A stretch of DNA of 64,000 nucleotides from Lyngbya aestuarii BL J (GTDB lineage: Bacteria; Cyanobacteriota; Cyanobacteriia; Cyanobacteriales; Microcoleaceae), in NCBI RefSeq assembly GCF_000478195.2, contig NZ_AUZM01000034.1:1-64000 (forward strand), read 5' to 3'. The position numbers and the translations under genes are program-made. The notes under the pieces are model-generated. The model saw only the letters and a list, made by a program, of their open reading frames with translations, did no database searches and was not told the origin of the DNA. Of this stretch, positions 45,284-54,667 are shown piece by piece. The first letter of the stretch is position 1, and each line of letters opens with the position of its first letter.

Positions 45284-45958
45284 ATGGGCTTTTTTGATCG
45301 CATTTGGCGAGTGATTCGTGCCAATATTAATAGTTTGATTAGTCAAGCCGAAGATCCAGAGAAAATTCTGGAACAAACGGTGATGGATATGCAGGAGGAC
45401 TTGGTGCAACTCAGACAAGCGGTTGCTCAAGCCATTGCCACCCAAAAACGCACCGAACGACAATGTTCTCAGGCGAAAACGACAGCCGAAGAATGGTACA
45501 GACGAGCGCAACTGGCTTTGCAAAAAGGGGAAGAACGACTCGCCCGAGAAGCGTTAACTCGTCGCAAATCTTATCTAGAAACCGAAGCAGCAATGTCGGC
45601 TCAACTCGAACAACAAGCTCAAGTGGTTGATCAGTTACGGAAAAATATGCGAAAGCTAGAGAGTAAAATTAGTGAGGCGAAGGCGAAAAAAGACTTGTTT
45701 ATTGCTCGGGCGCGATCGGCGAAAGCTTCGGAAAAACTCAACGAGATTCTCGGCAATACTAGCACGGGTGGGGCAATAAATGCCTTTGAACAGATGGAAG
45801 ACAAGGTAATGCAGCTTGAAGCCCGTTCTCAGGCAATGGCTGAACTCTCGGCTAATGATCTCGAAAAACAGTTTGATGCTCTCGAAAGCAGCGATGATGA
45901 TGTTGATGCAGAGTTGGCTGCCATGAAAGCAAAAATGCTACCCGGAAATAGTGATTGA
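45284..45958 (+). CDS. pspA: PspA/IM30 family membrane-remodelling protein (PspA form)
   Basis: A 224-residue ESCRT-III-like protein made of one amphipathic N-terminal helix (MGFFDRIWRVIRANINSL) and a long coiled-coil hairpin. The start, TQKRTERQ and EEWYRRAQLAL blocks and lack of a C-terminal tail match cyanobacterial PspA (the slr1188 type of Synechocystis) rather than Vipp1. It forms large ring or rod oligomers that bind and stabilise stressed membranes. It lies 18 bases after the SPOR-like gene, and is the first of three tandem paralogues. GGAG at 45270-45273 serves ATG 45284. Confidence 0.92.
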   Translation: MGFFDRIWRVIRANINSLISQAEDPEKILEQTVMDMQEDLVQLRQAVAQAIATQKRTERQCSQAKTTAEEWYRRAQLALQKGEERLAREALTRRKSYLETEAAMSAQLEQQAQVVDQLRKNMRKLESKISEAKAKKDLFIARARSAKASEKLNEILGNTSTGGAINAFEQMEDKVMQLEARSQAMAELSANDLEKQFDALESSDDDVDAELAAMKAKMLPGNSD

Positions 45959-46037
45959 CGGAGAATCTAAAAAATTCAGTACCCAGCAAGAGGGCTAGAT
46001 CCGGTAATAGGGTTAAACTAGAGGTAGTAGCTAGTAG

Positions 46038-46057
46038 AAGTTGGCTTTGAGCAACTG
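46038..46057 (+). repeat. Left copy of a 20-bp inverted repeat flanking vipp1
   Basis: These 20 bases match the reverse complement of 47033-47052 at 18 of 20 positions. The unit itself is partly palindromic (AGTTG...CAACT). It lies between pspA and vipp1, in a 172-base spacer. Confidence 0.55.
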
Positions 46058-46130
46058 ACTCTATACAGGTCGGTTAAATTGTCAACCTACTGCAATTAAC
46101 TTTATAAACCGCTAAAGGAAAAACAACGTT

Positions 46131-46916
46131 ATGGGACTATTCGATCGGATTAGCCGTGTCGTGAGATCGAACCTAAACGATATGGTGAGCAAGGCTGAAG
46201 ATCCAGAAAAGATCTTAGAGCAGACTCTTATTGAGATGCAGGAAGACCTGGTACAACTCCGTCAGGCTGTGGCTCAGGCAATTGCTTCTCAAAAACGCAG
46301 CCAACAGCAATATAACCAATCTCAATCTCAATCCAACCAGTGGCTATCTCGCGCTCAATTGGCTCTGCAAAAGGGAGATGAAAACCTCGCTCGTGAAGCT
46401 TTGCAGCGCAAAAAGAGTTATGAGGAGCAAGCCAACACCATTAAGTTGACTCTCGACGGGCAAACCGCTCAAGTTGATGCTCTCAAACGGAATTTAATTC
46501 AGCTAGAGAGCAAAATCTCCGAAGCCAAAACCAAGAAAAATATGCTCAAGGCTCGGGCGCAAGCGGCCAAAGCCAATGAGCAGTTACAGGGAATGCTCGG
46601 TGGTATTGATGCAACAGGCGGAATGGCTGCTTTTGATCGGATGGAAGAAAAAGTTCTGCAAATGGAAGCTCATTCTCAAGCCGCAGGAGAATTGGCAGGT
46701 GCAGATTTAGACAGTCAGTTTAAAGCACTTGAAGCCGGAAGCGGTGTTGATGACGAGTTAGAAGCGCTCAAAGCCAATATGCTCGGGGGTTCGGCTCAAC
46801 CCCAAGGTCAACTTCCCGCAGGTGAACAACCGACTTCTACACCCCAAACTCCCGCCCAAAAAGCAGAAGTCGATAGTGAGTTGGAAGATTTACGCAAGCA
46901 ACTCGATAATCTCTAG
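46131..46916 (+). CDS. vipp1: Vipp1/IM30, thylakoid membrane biogenesis protein
   Basis: A 261-residue PspA-family protein with the C-terminal extension that distinguishes Vipp1: after VDDELEALKANMLGG comes a Gln/Pro/Thr linker and a final helix SELEDLRKQLDNL, as in Synechocystis Sll0617. The N-terminal amphipathic helix MGLFDRISRVVRSNLNDM is followed by the coiled-coil core. Vipp1 rings bind acidic membranes and are needed for thylakoid formation and repair. AAAGGAAAA precedes ATG 46131. The spacer to pspA is 172 bases, so its own promoter is possible. The downstream gene is a close duplicate. Confidence 0.94.
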   Translation: MGLFDRISRVVRSNLNDMVSKAEDPEKILEQTLIEMQEDLVQLRQAVAQAIASQKRSQQQYNQSQSQSNQWLSRAQLALQKGDENLAREALQRKKSYEEQANTIKLTLDGQTAQVDALKRNLIQLESKISEAKTKKNMLKARAQAAKANEQLQGMLGGIDATGGMAAFDRMEEKVLQMEAHSQAAGELAGADLDSQFKALEAGSGVDDELEALKANMLGGSAQPQGQLPAGEQPTSTPQTPAQKAEVDSELEDLRKQLDNL

Positions 46917-47032
46917 TTGGAAAGGCTTGGAGTTGCGAGACAGCATTCAAGTTTGGCTCTTTGTTCGGGATTTGTTTGGGTTTCTCATAAATGAATAAGT
47001 TGACACTGATAGGAAGTAGTAGCAAGTGGCAG

Positions 47033-47052
47033 CAGTTGTTCAAAGCCAACTC
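47033..47052 (-). repeat. Right copy of the 20-bp inverted repeat flanking vipp1
   Basis: Inverted partner of 46038-46057 (18 of 20 identical when reverse-complemented). Together the two copies bracket the vipp1 gene, about 975 bases apart, and this copy is about 73 bases upstream of the second vipp1-like gene. Confidence 0.55.
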
Positions 47053-47124
47053 ATTTTAGAGGGGTGATTGACTCGTCAAGCTACTGCGCTTAACTCTATA
47101 AACTATTCAAGGAAAAACAGTGTT

Positions 47125-47910
47125 ATGGTACTACTTGATCGGATTAGCCGTCTTGTCAAAGCAAACCTAAACGATATGATCAGCAAGGCTGAAGATCCTG
47201 ATCAGATTTTAGAGCAGACGATTATTGATATGCACGAAGACCTGATGAAACTCCGTCAGGCAGTGGCTCTGGCAATGGCTTCTCAAAAACGCAGCCAGCA
47301 GCAATACACGCAATATCAATCTGAAGTCAATGACTGGCTGTCTCGCGCTCAACTGGCATTGCAAAAGGGAGAGGAAAACCTCGCCCGAGAAGCTTTACAG
47401 CGTAAGAAAAGTTCTGAGGAGCAAGCCAATATTGTTAAAGTTGCTCTCGATGGGCAAACTGCTCAAGTTGATACCCTCAAACGCAACTTAATTCAGCTTG
47501 AGAGCAAAATCTCCGAAGCCAAAACCAAGAAAAATATGCTCAAGGCTCGGGCGCAAGTGGTGAAAGCCAATGAGCAGTTACAGGGAATGCTGGACGGTAT
47601 TAATGTAACGGGCGGAATGGCAGCTTTTGAGCGCATGGAAGAAAAAGTCCTGCAAATGGAAGCTCGTTCTCAAGCCGCAGGAGAATTAACAGGTGCGGAC
47701 TTAGAAAGTCAGTTTAAAGCACTTGAAGCCGGAAGCGGTGTTGATGACGAGTTAGAAGCGCTCAAAGCCAATATGCTCGGGGGTTCGGCTCAACCTCAAG
47801 GTCAACTTCCGGCGGGTGAACAACCGACTTCTACACCCCAAACTCCCGCCCAAAAAACAGAAGTTGATCGCGAGTTTGAGGAGTTACGTCAGCAACTCAA
47901 CAAAATCTAA
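47125..47910 (+). CDS. Second Vipp1-like PspA-family protein (tandem duplicate)
   Basis: I choose ATG 47125 (261 aa, same length as the copy upstream) because CAAGGAAAA stands before it exactly as in that gene; the TTG 47068 start would add 19 unrelated residues. The protein has the amphipathic helix MVLLDRISRLVKANLNDM, the coiled-coil core and the Vipp1 C-terminal helix (EFEELRQQLNKI). A run of 50 residues spanning SQFKALEAGSG to PQTPAQK is identical to its neighbour. The N-terminal half is more divergent: G2 of the first helix is replaced by V, and several charged positions differ (for example MHEDLMK for MQEDLVQ). It may be a specialised or stress isoform; function is inferred from the family. 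Confidence 0.9.
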   Translation: MVLLDRISRLVKANLNDMISKAEDPDQILEQTIIDMHEDLMKLRQAVALAMASQKRSQQQYTQYQSEVNDWLSRAQLALQKGEENLAREALQRKKSSEEQANIVKVALDGQTAQVDTLKRNLIQLESKISEAKTKKNMLKARAQVVKANEQLQGMLDGINVTGGMAAFERMEEKVLQMEARSQAAGELTGADLESQFKALEAGSGVDDELEALKANMLGGSAQPQGQLPAGEQPTSTPQTPAQKTEVDREFEELRQQLNKI

Positions 47911-48456: not shown

Positions 48457-48774
48457 ATGTTTGATTTTCTTAATCCTATCCTGGGACGGCATCCTGAACA
48501 AGTCAAAGCTAATGTTGAAATTTATACTTGGCAAACCTGCCCCTATTGTATTCGAGCTAAATTATTATTGTGGTGGAAAGGGGTTAATTATACTGAGTAT
48601 AAAATAGATGGCGATAATACTGCCCGAAACCAAATGGCTGAACGAGCAAATGGACGGCGGAGTGTTCCTCAAATTTTTATTAATAATCAACATATTGGCG
48701 GATGCGACGAGCTTTATCAACTCAATAGTCAAGGGAGTTTAGATCCGTTGTTAGCAGAAAGTATTACTGTTTAA
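48457..48774 (+). CDS. grxC: Glutaredoxin (dithiol, GrxC type)
   Basis: A 105-residue class I glutaredoxin. The active site C28-P-Y-C31 sits in TWQTCPYCIRAK, followed by the cis-proline block SVPQIFINNQHIGGCDEL, where the glutathione-binding GG and D are visible. It reduces protein disulphides and glutathione mixed disulphides using glutathione, whose first synthetic enzyme, gshA, is also in this window. An N-terminal extension of about 20 residues precedes the domain. Its last 4 bases overlap the end of menD on the opposite strand. Confidence 0.93.
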   Translation: MFDFLNPILGRHPEQVKANVEIYTWQTCPYCIRAKLLLWWKGVNYTEYKIDGDNTARNQMAERANGRRSVPQIFINNQHIGGCDELYQLNSQGSLDPLLAESITV

Positions 48775-50516
48775 GAGTCTAAATCAGTTGCTAATTGATT
48801 GAGTGTATTTTGCCGCCATTTTGCGTCTAGTTGGCGGTTCGTGGTAATTTCTAGCACTCGAATTCCTTGTTTTGGTAATGGGTTTAGGTGTTGTTGGAGT
48901 TGATGCCAAGATTGGATTTTTTGATACTCTACTTCATAAGTTGTGCAGAGTTGAGCAAAATCAATATGCTGAGGCGTTGCGAAAAAATCTTCAAAAGGGG
49001 GATTAAATTCGGCAATGGGTAATAGTTCAAAAATTCCGCCTCCGTTATTATTAATTAGAATAATGGTTAAATGACCCTTGAATTTATTTCTGAGTAAAAA
49101 GCCGTTGGTATCGTGAAGTAAAGCGAGATCTCCTGTTAGTAATATACTGCTTTGATGATGATGAGCGATGCCTAAAGCGGTGGATAATGTGCCATCAATT
49201 CCATTTGCACCTCGATTAAAAAAGGGTTGAATTTCTAAAGAATTTGGCATCCAGAAAAATTCTACATCTCGGACAGGCATACTATTAGAAATAAATAAAG
49301 GGGTTTGAGGCGGTAAGATTTGCGGCAAAAGCCAAGAGATTTTTGGTTCTATTAAAGCTTCAAGTGTTGTCATTTCTTGCTCTAATTTTTGTCTAACAAC
49401 AGCTTCTGCATTCTGCCAAAGTTGGATATAGTTTTTGTTATTGTTATTAGGTTTTAATTCGGATAAACTATCAGCAATTTGTTCGATAGAATACCGCAAG
49501 TGAATCGCTGAGTTGTGTAAAGAATTGAGGTTTTGATAGGTTGGATCGATAATAAAGGTTTGAGGGGAATTGTTTGCTAACCACGTTCTCAGTTGTTTGC
49601 TGGTGGGTAAATCTCCAATTTGAATCACACTTTTAGGGGTGAGTTTTTCTGCATAGTTTTGATTGCGTAAAATCAAGTCATAAGTTGCAATTAAGTTCGG
49701 GTTAATGTGATGATAATTTCTCAGGGGAGATAACCCTTCTGCTAATACAGGCCAGTTTAAAAATTGGGAGAGTTTAGCAACCGCTTGACTGTATAATTGG
49801 GGAGACTGGGGTTGAGCAACTCCCGCAATAATTAAGCCTTGTTTACAAGATTGCCATTTTTCGAGATATGGGTTTAAATTAAGAGTAGAATTAACGGGTT
49901 GTTCAAAAGAAACCATTGAAAAAAAATCGGAGGGAAACGTTGCTTCTAATGCTAAAGCGGCAGGTTGGGGGACAGGGATTAAAGGATCACGAAACGGACA
50001 ATTTAGATGCACTGGCCCCGGTATCGGAACCTGCGTTCGCTCCCATCCATAGATTAGCGTTTGTCGCAGATAACCTAACCGTTCAAGCTCTAAAGAAGGG
50101 GTTGCAAGTTCGCTCTGCAAAGTGGGATAATGACCGTATAATTTAACTTGGTCAATCGTTTGTCCAGCGTGACAATTTCGTAATTCAGGTGGACGATCTG
50201 CTGTTAAAATTAATAACGGAACTCGACTTTCTCGGGCTTCGATAACAGCCGGATAAAAGTTTGCTCCTGCGGTTCCCGAGGTACAAACCAAAACAGTAGG
50301 TAAACCTGATTTTTTAGCAATTCCCAAGGCAAAAAAAGCCGCAGAACGTTCATCTAGAACGGGAATTGTTTCAATTTCAGACTGTTGGGAAAAAGCAAAC
50401 GTCAGGGGGGTAGAACGAGAACCAGGGCTAATAATAGCGGTGGTTAATCCTAGTTTGTATAGGGTTTCAACCATAATCGAAGCCCAAACGGTATTTGTAT
50501 TGCGAAAGTCGATCAT
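48771..50516 (-). CDS. menD: SEPHCHC synthase MenD
   Basis: A 581-residue thiamine-diphosphate enzyme that joins 2-oxoglutarate and isochorismate, the first committed step of phylloquinone synthesis. Seen: the N-terminal pyrimidine-binding domain with ISPGSRSTPLTFA and the conserved LDERSAAFFALGIAK (E of the ThDP activation), VCTSGTAGANFYPAVIEA, and in the C-terminal domain the ThDP/Mg motif TGDLALLHDTNGFL with NNNGGGIFELLP. ATG 50516 lies 78 bases from the divergent dnaE-N start. menB of the same pathway lies at 41630. Confidence 0.96.
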   Translation of the reverse strand: MIDFRNTNTVWASIMVETLYKLGLTTAIISPGSRSTPLTFAFSQQSEIETIPVLDERSAAFFALGIAKKSGLPTVLVCTSGTAGANFYPAVIEARESRVPLLILTADRPPELRNCHAGQTIDQVKLYGHYPTLQSELATPSLELERLGYLRQTLIYGWERTQVPIPGPVHLNCPFRDPLIPVPQPAALALEATFPSDFFSMVSFEQPVNSTLNLNPYLEKWQSCKQGLIIAGVAQPQSPQLYSQAVAKLSQFLNWPVLAEGLSPLRNYHHINPNLIATYDLILRNQNYAEKLTPKSVIQIGDLPTSKQLRTWLANNSPQTFIIDPTYQNLNSLHNSAIHLRYSIEQIADSLSELKPNNNNKNYIQLWQNAEAVVRQKLEQEMTTLEALIEPKISWLLPQILPPQTPLFISNSMPVRDVEFFWMPNSLEIQPFFNRGANGIDGTLSTALGIAHHHQSSILLTGDLALLHDTNGFLLRNKFKGHLTIILINNNGGGIFELLPIAEFNPPFEDFFATPQHIDFAQLCTTYEVEYQKIQSWHQLQQHLNPLPKQGIRVLEITTNRQLDAKWRQNTLNQLATDLDS

Positions 50517-50594: not shown

Positions 50595-53285
50595 ATGTCT
50601 TTTGTAGGGTTGCACATTCATAGTGATTATAGCCTCTTAGATGGAGCCTCTCAATTACCTCAATTAATTGAGCGAGCCGTTGAATTAAAAATGCCTGCGA
50701 TCGCTGTCACCGATCACGGTGTTATGTATGGTGCAATTGAGTTAATTAAACAGTGTCGAAGCAAGGGAATTAAACCCATTATTGGGAATGAAATGTATGT
50801 TATTAATGGTGATGTTACCCAACAGCAGCGCCGTTTAAAAAAATATCATCAAGTGGTCTTAGCTAAAAATACAAAAGGCTACAAAAACCTCGTTAAACTC
50901 ACAACAATTTCTCATCTCAAAGGGTTTCAAGGGAAAGGAATTTTTGCCCGTCCTTGTGTTAATAAAGATCTTTTAGAACAGTATCACGAAGGGTTAATTG
51001 TGACAAGTGCTTGTTTGGGAGGAGAACTTCCCCAAGCCATTTTACAGGGACGCTCAGATGTGGCTCGGAAAGCGGCTCAATGGTATCAAGAGGTGTTTGG
51101 GGACGATTATTATATAGAAATCCAGGATCACGGTTCTCCTGAAGATCGAATTGTTAACGTAGAGTTAGTCAAAATCGCCCGTGAATTTGACATTAAAATT
51201 ATTGCAACCAATGATTCTCATTTCATCTCTTGTTATGATGTCGAAGCTCACGATGCGTTACTTTGTATTAACACTCAAAAACTAATTACCGAAGATAAAA
51301 GAATGCGTTATTCGGGGACTGAATATCTAAAATCAGCCGAAGAAATGGCGCAGTTATTTCGGGATCATTTACCGGATGATGTGATCCGAGAAGCGATTGC
51401 AAATACAATAGAAGTTTCTGAAAAAATTGAACCCTACACTGGAATTTTAGGTGAATCTCGTATTCCAGATTATCCCATTCCACCCAATCATACCTCAGAT
51501 ACTTATCTCGAAGAAGTGACCTGGAAAGGGCTAATAGAAAGATTACAAGACCAGATCAAAATACAGACTCGTTCAGAAATTCCACCAATTTATCGGGAAC
51601 GTTTAGAATACGAACTAAAAATGATGCAAAAAATGGGATTTTCCACCTATTTTTTGGTTGTTTGGGATTATATTAAATATGCTCGCGATCATCAGATTCC
51701 CGTTGGCCCTGGCCGAGGTTCTGCCGCAGGTTCCTTGGTTGCTTACTCTTTAGGAATTACTAATATTGATCCGGTTCATCACGGATTATTATTTGAGCGT
51801 TTTTTGAATCCAGAACGGAAATCTATGCCTGATATTGATACGGATTTTTGTATCGCTAGGCGGGATGAAATGATTCGATATGTAACGAACCAATATGGCG
51901 AAGATAAAGTTGCTCAAATTATCACCTTTAACCGCATGACTTCCAAAGCGGTTTTAAAAGACGTCGCCCGCGTTTTAGGAATTGCCTACAGTAAATCCGA
52001 TCAAATGGCGAAATTAATTCCGGTTGCGCGAGGAAAACCGGCTAAATTAAAAGTCATGATTTCTGATGATACGCCCTCACCTGAGTTTAAAACTGCTTAT
52101 GAAACTGAAGATGTTCCAATCAAAAATGATGTGGGAGATGAAGTCGGAACGATTCCTGTGCGTCAGTGGATAGATATGGCAATTCGGATCGAAGGAACGA
52201 ACAAAACCTTTGGAGTTCATGCTGCGGGTGTGGTGATTTCTAAACAGCCTTTAGATGAAATTGTACCTTTGCAACGAAATAATGACGGGGCTGTAATTAC
52301 TCAATATTTTATGGAAGATATTGAGGCCCTTGGATTGTTAAAAATGGATTTTTTAGGCTTAAAAAACCTCACGATTATTCAGCGAGTTGTGGAATTAATT
52401 GAAGAAAATCATCATTTTAAAATTCATCCCGATCAACTTCCTTTCGATGAACGGAGGGCTTGTCAAATCCTCGCAAAAGGAAAGGTTAAAAAACTGCCGC
52501 AGGACATCCAGAATACCTATAAATTATTAGAACGAGGAGATTTAGAAGGTGTATTTCAGTTGGAATCCTCGGGAATGCGGCAAATTGTTCGGGATTTAAA
52601 ACCCTCTAATATTGAGGATATTTCTTCTATTTTAGCTTTATATCGACCTGGGCCATTAGATGCGGGATTGATTCCCAAATTTATTGAGCGGAAACACAAA
52701 AGAGTCCCGATTGAATACGAACATCCGTTGTTAGAATCGATTTTACAAGAAACCTACGGGATTCTCGTTTATCAAGAACAAATTATGAAAATGGCGCAAG
52801 ATTTAGCGGGATATTCGTTAGGTCAAGCAGATTTATTACGTCGGGCGATGGGGAAAAAGAAGCTATCAGAAATGCAGAAACAAAGAGAAGCATTTATTGA
52901 TGGTTCAACGAAAAATGGTGTGAGTAAACAAATTGCTGAACATTTATTTGATCAGATGTTAGCATTCGCAGAATATTGCCTGAGTTATGATACTGAAATT
53001 TTGACAGTCGAATATGGAGCAATACCGATAGGTAAAGTTGTGGATGAAAAGATAGAATGTACAGTTTATAGTGTTGATAAAAATGGTTTGATTTATACTC
53101 AACCTATTGCTCAATGGCATAATCGAGGAAAACAAGAAGTATTTGAGTATAGTCTTGAAGATGGTTCAACAATTCGGGCGACAAAAGATCATAAGTTTAT
53201 GACAATGGATAATCAAATGCTACCCATCGATGAGATTCTTGAAAAAGGGTTAGAATTAAAACAGGTTAATGCAGATTCGGTATAA
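50595..53285 (+). CDS. dnaE: DNA polymerase III alpha subunit, N-terminal part with N-intein (DnaE-N)
   Basis: 896 residues: extein 1-794 and split-intein fragment IntN 795-896 (102 aa). The extein has the PHP domain ([12 protein letters not shown]), [15 protein letters not shown], catalytic aspartates in PDIDTDF (about 412-418, D413/D415), and ends LAFAEY. IntN begins C795-LSYDTEIL and includes the block B motif [10 protein letters not shown] with its Thr/His; it closely matches the Npu/Ssp DnaE split inteins. Trans-splicing with DnaE-C yields a polymerase of about 1206 residues. The stop is followed after 35 bases by dnaE-C, an arrangement unlike the far-apart genes described for Synechocystis. 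Confidence 0.97.
52977..53282 (+). other. DnaE split intein, N-terminal fragment (IntN)
   Basis: Codons 795-896 of dnaE-N. Splice-site Cys1 (TGC 52977-52979) follows extein Y794; the fragment ends NADSV. Length 102 residues equals that of the Npu IntN. The block A Cys and block B TxxH elements needed for splicing are present. Confidence 0.95.
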
Positions 53286-53320
53286 TTAAAGTGAAAATCA
53301 TCAAATAAGGAGTTACAAAC

Positions 53321-53428
53321 ATGGTTAAAATTGTGAGTCGAAAGTCTTTAGACAGTCAAACTGTTTATGATATTGGAGTTGAGACAGACCATAATTTTCT
53401 GCTGGCAAATGGTTCAGTAGCATCTAAC
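53321..53428 (+). other. DnaE split intein, C-terminal fragment (IntC)
   Basis: Codons 1-36 of dnaE-C. It starts MVKIVSRKSL, carries the block F motif DIGVETDHNFLLANG with penultimate-region His, and ends S-N before C37 of the extein (TGT 53429-53431). All residues for Asn cyclisation and extein ligation are present. Confidence 0.95.
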
Positions 53429-54667
53429 TGTTTTAATAAATCCCATTCGATGGCTTACGGGTTTGTTACCTATCAAACTGCCTATCTCAAAGCCAATTAT
53501 CCTGTTGAATATATGGCAGCATTGCTCACCGAAAATAGTGATAACACGGATAAAGTTCAAAAATATATTGATTCCTGTCAACGCAGTTTAAATATTAAAG
53601 TGATTCCTCCTGATGTGAATCGTTCTGAAGTCGATTTTACGCCTGCAAATGGTAAAATAATATTTGGATTATCTGCTATCAAAAATGTAGGAGAAGCGGC
53701 GATTGAGAATATTTTAGAGGCGCGTAGAAAAGACGGAGAGTTTAAAGATTTACCCGATTTTTGTAGTCGAATCAGCTTGCAAATCGTCAACAGTCGAGCT
53801 TTGGAAGCTTTAATAAAATGCGGGGCGTTAAACAGTTTAAATAATAATCGAAAGCAAGCCATTGAACACTTAAACTTTTTAATTCCTTGGGCGCAGGGAA
53901 AAGCAAAAGATAAAGAAATTGGTCAGGGTAATATTTTTGACTTGTTGGGAGAAACAAGCACAAAAAATACTAACGAGGGCGCTCCCAAACCTCCACAGGT
54001 AAATGATTTTTCGACCCAAGAAAAGTTACAATTTGAAAAAGAATTACTCGGCTTTTATGTTTCCGAACATCCCCTCAAATCTATTATTGAAGCCAAACTG
54101 ATTGAAGATGCGGTGACGCTGCAAGATTTGGCAGAGCATAAAGGAAAAAAAGTCAAAGTTTTTTTAACGGTTGTGGAAGTTAAGCAGCACGTTACCAAGA
54201 AAGGCGGTCGCATGGCGTTTCTGCAAGTTGAGGATATGAGCGGACAAGCCGAAGCAATTGTTTTTCCCCGAACGTATCAAGAGGTTCAAGATTCTCTCAA
54301 AGAAAATATGTCCCTATTGGTGACGGGTAAAGTTGATAAACAGGAGGATAAAATTCAGCTTATAATAGATGAAACCGAATCAGTTCAGCGCCTGTTAGAA
54401 AGTGTGAAACCTCAAGAAAAGCAAGCCTCAGTTAGGCTCTACCTGACACCCGAAGAAATCGAAAAAACCGAAACGATGAATAACCTAAAAACGCTTTTGC
54501 AGGATTATAATGGAAATCCAGACCAGAAAAAATATCCAGTTGAAGCAGTAGTCTCCAACCAATATTTAGTAAGATTTGGCGAGCGATTTTGGGTTGAAGA
54601 TCTAGAAGGGATTGTTAATCGCCTCAAAGAAAGGGAATTTCAAGCCAGTATCTTTAACAACGACTAG
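53321..54667 (+). CDS. dnaE: C-intein and DNA polymerase III alpha subunit, C-terminal part (DnaE-C)
   Basis: 448 residues: IntC 1-36 and extein 37-448 (412 aa). IntC ends VASN, with terminal N36, and the extein begins C37-FNKSHSMAYG, the standard +1 Cys and family sequence. The extein includes helix-hairpin-helix elements (SAIKNVGEAAIENI) and an OB-fold (VFLTVVEVKQHVTKKGGRMA). It is in the +2 frame relative to dnaE-N. AAGGAG, with 7 bases of spacing, drives ATG 53321, so it is translated independently. The last 4 bases overlap the redoxin gene on the other strand. Confidence 0.96.
   Translation: MVKIVSRKSLDSQTVYDIGVETDHNFLLANGSVASNCFNKSHSMAYGFVTYQTAYLKANYPVEYMAALLTENSDNTDKVQKYIDSCQRSLNIKVIPPDVNRSEVDFTPANGKIIFGLSAIKNVGEAAIENILEARRKDGEFKDLPDFCSRISLQIVNSRALEALIKCGALNSLNNNRKQAIEHLNFLIPWAQGKAKDKEIGQGNIFDLLGETSTKNTNEGAPKPPQVNDFSTQEKLQFEKELLGFYVSEHPLKSIIEAKLIEDAVTLQDLAEHKGKKVKVFLTVVEVKQHVTKKGGRMAFLQVEDMSGQAEAIVFPRTYQEVQDSLKENMSLLVTGKVDKQEDKIQLIIDETESVQRLLESVKPQEKQASVRLYLTPEEIEKTETMNNLKTLLQDYNGNPDQKKYPVEAVVSNQYLVRFGERFWVEDLEGIVNRLKEREFQASIFNND

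Follow-up and report, generated by a model that had tools for sequence, protein, structure and literature searches.

The two halves of a split DnaE intein are encoded side by side in the cyanobacterium Lyngbya aestuarii BL J, and this arrangement probably derives from a "fractured gene", in which a free-standing gene for a LAGLIDADG homing endonuclease (HEN) lay between the N- and C-terminal intein halves (IntN and IntC) and was lost before the halves separated. The window analyzed here is the whole stretch of 64,000 nucleotides at the start of contig NZ_AUZM01000034.1 (assembly GCF_000478195.2), in which dnaE-N, ending in IntN, is followed by dnaE-C, beginning with IntC. An earlier note on this DNA had described the halves as neighbouring and co-directional, and its coordinates are confirmed: IntN ends at 53282, IntC starts at 53321 and a 35-nt spacer separates the genes. 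It was also right that two separate proteins are encoded, with dnaE-C lying in another frame and having its own AAGGAG ribosome-binding site. The note further set the adjacency against the far-apart genes described for cyanobacteria with split dnaE; it is not special to the window, as adjacent halves recur across the family, the order and other orders. A gene-order comparison across cyanobacteria, the check that the note had suggested, showed this and pointed to a cause that the note had missed: the adjacency is best explained as what is left of an IntN-HEN-IntC cassette, the spacer matching the 3' end of a HEN gene.

By each feature examined, the window locus is a split DnaE intein, with trans-splicing predicted from its residues. 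The insertion lies directly before the Cys-Phe-Asn of DnaE, the halves are on separate open reading frames (ORFs), and the splicing residues read from the sequence include Cys1, the TKDH of block B, the C-terminal Asn and the +1 Cys. Among the NCBIfam models, intein_Nterm (TIGR01445) matches residues 795-870 of DnaE-N with 58 bits against a cut-off of 24.5, intein_Cterm (TIGR01443) scores 27.6 bits (cut-off 15.6) and the DnaE-N family NF007079 scores 1731 bits (cut-off 1525). The reading frame changes from one gene to the next and several stops intervene; thus, a single base error could not explain the break. Both ORFs are intact. Each gene occurs once in the 6.86-Mb, 437-contig draft genome, and a genome-wide search detected no HEN elsewhere in it. 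As in fractured genes, the intein halves adjoin at one locus; the 35-nt spacer holds no free-standing endonuclease gene, and the locus is consequently classified as a fractured-gene derivative rather than as a member of that class.

In relatives of L. aestuarii, in contrast, a free-standing endonuclease gene does stand between the halves, as in fractured genes. Our survey of 391 genomes of the window's order recovered HEN matches in 25, of which 24 are strong and span six families (f1, f8, f17, f20, f57 and f58), while one (G666) is weak and located elsewhere. Every strong HEN with readable contigs sits between IntN and IntC; the contigs of two drafts, G003 and G571, end in or beside the HEN. 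The same layout is seen in one genome of another order (G324) and in ten named loci, including those of Lyngbya sp. CCAP 1446/10 and Microcoleus vaginatus HSN003. The ORF that fills the gap, of about 259 aa, is found in Microcoleus, in G445 of the neighbouring genus g3 and in families f8, f17, f20, f57 and f58. Its product matches the Pfam family LAGLIDADG_3 at 43-47 bits (cut-off 22.5), contains two LAGLIDADG motifs with acidic residues, LLGLIAADG and VLGYFDGDG, and begins with a region resembling a helix-turn-helix; in the PDB, its profile matches 2dch, a putative homing endonuclease (E 4e-6), and its predicted structure, at a mean pLDDT of 46.5, was too poor for use. The HEN shows a dN/dS of 0.08-0.18, which indicates that its protein sequence is maintained by purifying selection. 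The HEN stop overlaps the dnaE-C start, with CAT GGT TAA read over ATG GTT AAA, and AGGAG, the ribosome-binding site of dnaE-C, falls within the last HEN codons. A pattern search of IMG/VR, made for a viral source, returned no relative. Distant HEN relatives of about 30% identity are also present at L247 (G666) and L251 (G571), with no adjoining dnaE halves.

The spacer of the window carries what appears to be the end of this gene. Its last 14 nt (AAGGAGTTACAAAC) are identical to the 3' end of the HEN of M. vaginatus HSN003 (G443), a HEN that is itself interrupted by ORFs resembling transposases (L152:8216-10710). Over the 18 nt preceding the dnaE-C start, 14 positions match the consensus of the HEN 3' end, as against at most 10 of 18 at the split loci of other families that have no HEN (n=41); with AGGAG held fixed, the chance of 14 or more matches is about 0.0014. 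The remainder is AT-rich and too short to be assigned. Earlier steps of decay are preserved in other genomes: the HEN of G005 carries a single stop, an internal deletion in G018 and G013 has left a 165-bp remnant in which the HEN start is joined to the HEN end, and just the last 12 HEN codons are left in G422. Ordered from G005 through G018/G013 and G422 to the 14-nt match of the window, these sequences support deletion as the direction of change. The 3' end of the HEN tends to persist, presumably because an essential gene depends on the ribosome-binding site within it.

Gene order places the halves of the window at the ancestral dnaE position. The dnaE site is variable among 59 relatives and 62 family genomes, which have no intein (empty), a contiguous intein (fused), adjacent halves or far-apart halves. 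In empty, fused and HEN-bearing genomes of genus g3 the usual order is a divergent menD, dnaE, a convergent c2 and then c16, c11 and c10, the last three being scored where contig and assembly extend that far. In three g3 genomes (G022, G011 and G446) the halves are megabases apart or on separate contigs, with menD staying with dnaE-N, and c2 and its neighbours with dnaE-C. Upstream of dnaE-C in these three lie HEN residues from about 217-228 to 259, which are the only HEN-like places in their genomes (E 1.8e-5 to 3.4e-6), and the dnaE-N side of G446 appears by eye to retain the first HEN codons. This synteny together with the HEN remnants points to a split in g3 that passed through an IntN-HEN-IntC stage, with the breakpoint inside the HEN. 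The window and the empty genome G004 have menD upstream in the same arrangement, and both halves of the window are in position; hence, the halves of the window most likely never separated. The "retained intermediate" offered by the earlier note is thereby supported, menD marking the dnaE position shared with empty, fused and HEN-bearing relatives.

Features of the dnaE locus in the window (positions of the 64,000-nt stretch)
Feature	Position	Strand	Details
menD-like gene, divergent, marks ancestral dnaE locus	48771..50516	-	thiamine-pyrophosphate enzyme domains; also beside dnaE in g3 and g5 genomes
dnaE-N, whole gene	50595-53285	+	896 aa; N-extein + IntN
dnaE-N N-extein, DNA polymerase III alpha	50595..52976	+	aa 1-794; PHP, DNA_pol3_alpha and finger domains; NF007079 above cut-off
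IntN, N-terminal split DnaE intein half	52977..53282	+	102 aa (aa 795-896, CLSYD...); TIGR01445; Cys1, block-B TKDH
dnaE-N stop codon TAA	53283..53285	+	
Spacer, putative scar of deleted HEN gene	53286..53320	+	35 nt; 3' match to HEN 3'-end consensus
AAGGAG ribosome-binding site of dnaE-C	53307..53312	+	8 nt upstream of ATG; identical bases are the last sense HEN codons in relatives
dnaE-C, whole gene	53321-54667	+	448 aa; IntC + C-extein
IntC, C-terminal split intein half	53321..53428	+	36 aa (...VASN/CFNKSH); TIGR01443; terminal Asn, then Cys+1
dnaE-C C-extein, DNA polymerase III alpha	53429..54667	+	HHH_6 and OB-fold domains

Several observations indicate that the cassette behaves as a mobile element, namely the purifying selection on the HEN, near-identical empty and filled alleles and conflicts between trees. 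Empty genomes are scattered among filled ones in the extein tree, and parsimony counts at least 11 state changes on 58 taxa, G438 being coded as adjacent and G429 as fused. The M. vaginatus-type alleles of G016 (empty) and G443 (filled) share 95-100% identity in most 120-nt windows around the site, the lowest being 88%. The cassette tree disagrees with the extein tree in that the cassettes of genera g4 and g6 group with that of G324 from another order; a cassette tree with family f1 held together is rejected (p-AU 0.0009), and the pairing of G035 within Microcoleus differs between the cassette and extein trees (p-AU 2e-7 and 2e-72). Both gain and precise loss by recombination fit the pattern of empty and filled sites.

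Halves may also have been joined again. G033 and G002, both of genus g3, have a single ORF running through a contiguous mini-intein, and their fused junction, CATGTTAAA, resembles CATGGTTAAA with one G deleted. This suggests that a split preceded the present fusion; for these two, an intein contiguous since ancestral times is a possible alternative. G429 is seemingly fused across the junction, tentatively so as its C-extein is frameshifted in the draft assembly. Re-fusion in G438, where the halves share a frame, was considered and ruled out by stops between them.

We propose that the ancestor would have been a three-gene cassette inside dnaE, comprising dnaE-N with IntN, the free-standing LAGLIDADG HEN and dnaE-C with IntC, the ribosome-binding site and the start codon of dnaE-C lying within the last HEN codons. 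Cleavage of insert-free dnaE alleles by the HEN, followed by repair with the filled copy as template, would spread the cassette, with the host polymerase being retained through the splicing of the two chains by IntN and IntC. In the lineage of the window the HEN would then have been deleted save for the 3' bases that serve as the dnaE-C ribosome-binding site, so that 35 nt are left. Elsewhere, a rearrangement that broke within the HEN may have separated the halves, and in yet other lineages they may have been re-fused into a contiguous mini-intein. We give about even odds to a broader proposition, that all natural split DnaE inteins trace back to a mobile IntN-LAGLIDADG HEN-IntC cassette that invades and splits intact dnaE genes, that the far-apart halves of model cyanobacteria are late products of HEN loss and rearrangement, and that the cassette is still moving in living Microcoleus. 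An origin of all distant DnaE splits through a HEN stage is possible.

Certain results weigh against this derivation from a HEN-bearing cassette. The scar in the window is short, with 14 exact nucleotides, and is partly a ribosome-binding site under selection, which limits the confidence that can be placed in it. About 40 split loci of other families are without a HEN remnant, a search beside the distant halves of those families giving none at E below 1, and the route is unsupported there. The groups in the AU tests were named after the trees had been seen, so that their p values are descriptive. Furthermore, the intein tree places the intein of the window weakly, nearest to a distant-split genome of family f12; thus, the family may have acquired the cassette from outside after the HEN had been lost.

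The reverse order of events, in which the window keeps an ancestral adjacent split that had no HEN and already had the present ribosome-binding site, with the HEN invading the spacer later in other lineages, is in our estimate unlikely. It would accommodate the adjacent splits with unrelated gap genes in other orders (G256, G066 and G081), and the bases common to spacer and HEN do include a functional ribosome-binding site. Nevertheless, in seven families from two orders the HEN fills one slot and overlaps dnaE-C identically, there are repeated cases of its decay, and the related genus g3 has both an intact HEN (G445) and remnants in three genomes. A recent independent split, whereby an indel in a contiguous mini-intein created a stop, a ribosome-binding site and a start, might be suspected from the contiguous mini-inteins at the same site in G033 and G002. 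We regard it as highly improbable, because the break is at the split site common to all other split loci, the ATGGTTAAA start and the HEN-like upstream block are present, and the fused g3 junction itself looks like a one-base deletion derived from that start (CATGTTAAA versus CATGGTTAAA).

The other suggestion of the earlier note, that separated halves were reunited by a chance rearrangement, draws on the distant splits that occur within the window's own family. It would require dnaE-C to return to its exact place at the menD locus; both halves lie there in the ancestral orientation, and the end of the spacer resembles the end of the HEN, which makes such a re-joining very unlikely, more so than a recent split. 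Least probable of all is an assembly artefact or collapsed sequence at 53286-53320: the genome is a draft of 437 contigs, but the junction is interior to a contig of 65.6 kb with neither ORF disrupted, and the rest of the genome yields no copy of the HEN. The derivation from an IntN-HEN-IntC cassette thus remains the reading that we consider probable.

Beyond the order, an intein query matched 105 of 386 genomes in a sample of the phylum, a few of them weakly. Among the matches listed, adjacent halves in other orders are found in G324, with a HEN, and in G256, G066 and G081, with an unrelated gap gene. These gap genes were considered as homing endonucleases and not accepted: that of G066 (L196) encodes a Uma2-family putative restriction endonuclease, that of G256 (L195) is a 237-aa ORF matching no Pfam family, and that of G081 (L197) is a 708-aa ORF. 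The spacer of the window is the shortest of any split pair among the loci read. Separately, three tandem related ORFs (cluster c3) lie upstream of menD at 45284-47910 of the window and also adjoin dnaE in G004 and G009. Downstream of the intein-free dnaE of G009 (L083:5578-6652) there are six extra tandem copies of the last 42 dnaE codons, with short AT-rich repeats between them. The dnaE-N of genera g3, g6 and g7 (L063, L069-L074, L078, L080 and L081) contains at least one further intein near extein residues 724-781, and the split-intein site is empty in some of these genomes.

The way in which an undivided essential gene for a polymerase turned into two distant genes whose products are spliced together is unsettled. 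One review derives split inteins from a break in a mini-intein (PMC7765530), and another describes a neutral pathway (PMC3403396). In Desulfonema ishimotonii dnaE lies in two adjacent coding sequences with an intein in one of them, which its authors do not regard as a case of the split cyanobacterial intein (PMC6390638). A single bacterial family shows many of the proposed stages: the empty gene, the cassette with a selected endonuclease, decay of the endonuclease, adjacent HEN-less halves as in the window, separated halves with remnants and a seemingly re-fused mini-intein. With these stages present in one family, direct tests become possible of how split inteins, which underlie major protein-engineering tools, originated. 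The window suggests a possible origin for the split DnaE inteins in wide use, and the family as a whole suggests that a selfish element may split and re-join an essential gene repeatedly. As far as checked, HEN remnants between dnaE halves have not been described before, and the literature searched, which lay outside subscription papers, yielded no report of an endonuclease in that position; this is not proof of novelty.

Comparable breaks in coding sequences are known from other systems. The ribonucleotide reductase gene in pieces described by Friedrich et al. 2007 was reportedly made by a homing endonuclease, with no intein joining the pieces. It is alike in that an endonuclease gene breaks a coding sequence whose pieces are functional, and differs in that splicing of the dnaE halves is expected to restore one chain. 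The fractured genes with split inteins of Dassa et al. 2009 are said to be mostly phage and metagenome genes with EDxHD endonucleases. The window's relatives resemble them in having intein halves that flank a free-standing endonuclease gene; however, their HEN is of the LAGLIDADG_3 type rather than EDxHD, the host gene is an essential chromosomal polymerase, and the window itself is without the endonuclease. The split dnaE of Trichodesmium erythraeum, according to Liu and Yang 2003, reportedly contains several inteins. Genera g6 and g7 are alike in combining extra dnaE-N inteins with adjacent halves, whereas no extra intein is seen in the dnaE of the window. The cyanobacterial split DnaE inteins of Synechocystis PCC 6803 and Nostoc punctiforme (Wu 1998, Caspi 2003, Iwai 2006) agree with that of the window in the insertion site before Cys-Phe-Asn, the split site (102 + 36 aa), the catalytic residues and the two ORFs. 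In those genomes the halves are far apart, whereas they lie 35 nt apart at one locus in the window, and the relatives of the window carry a HEN gene between them.
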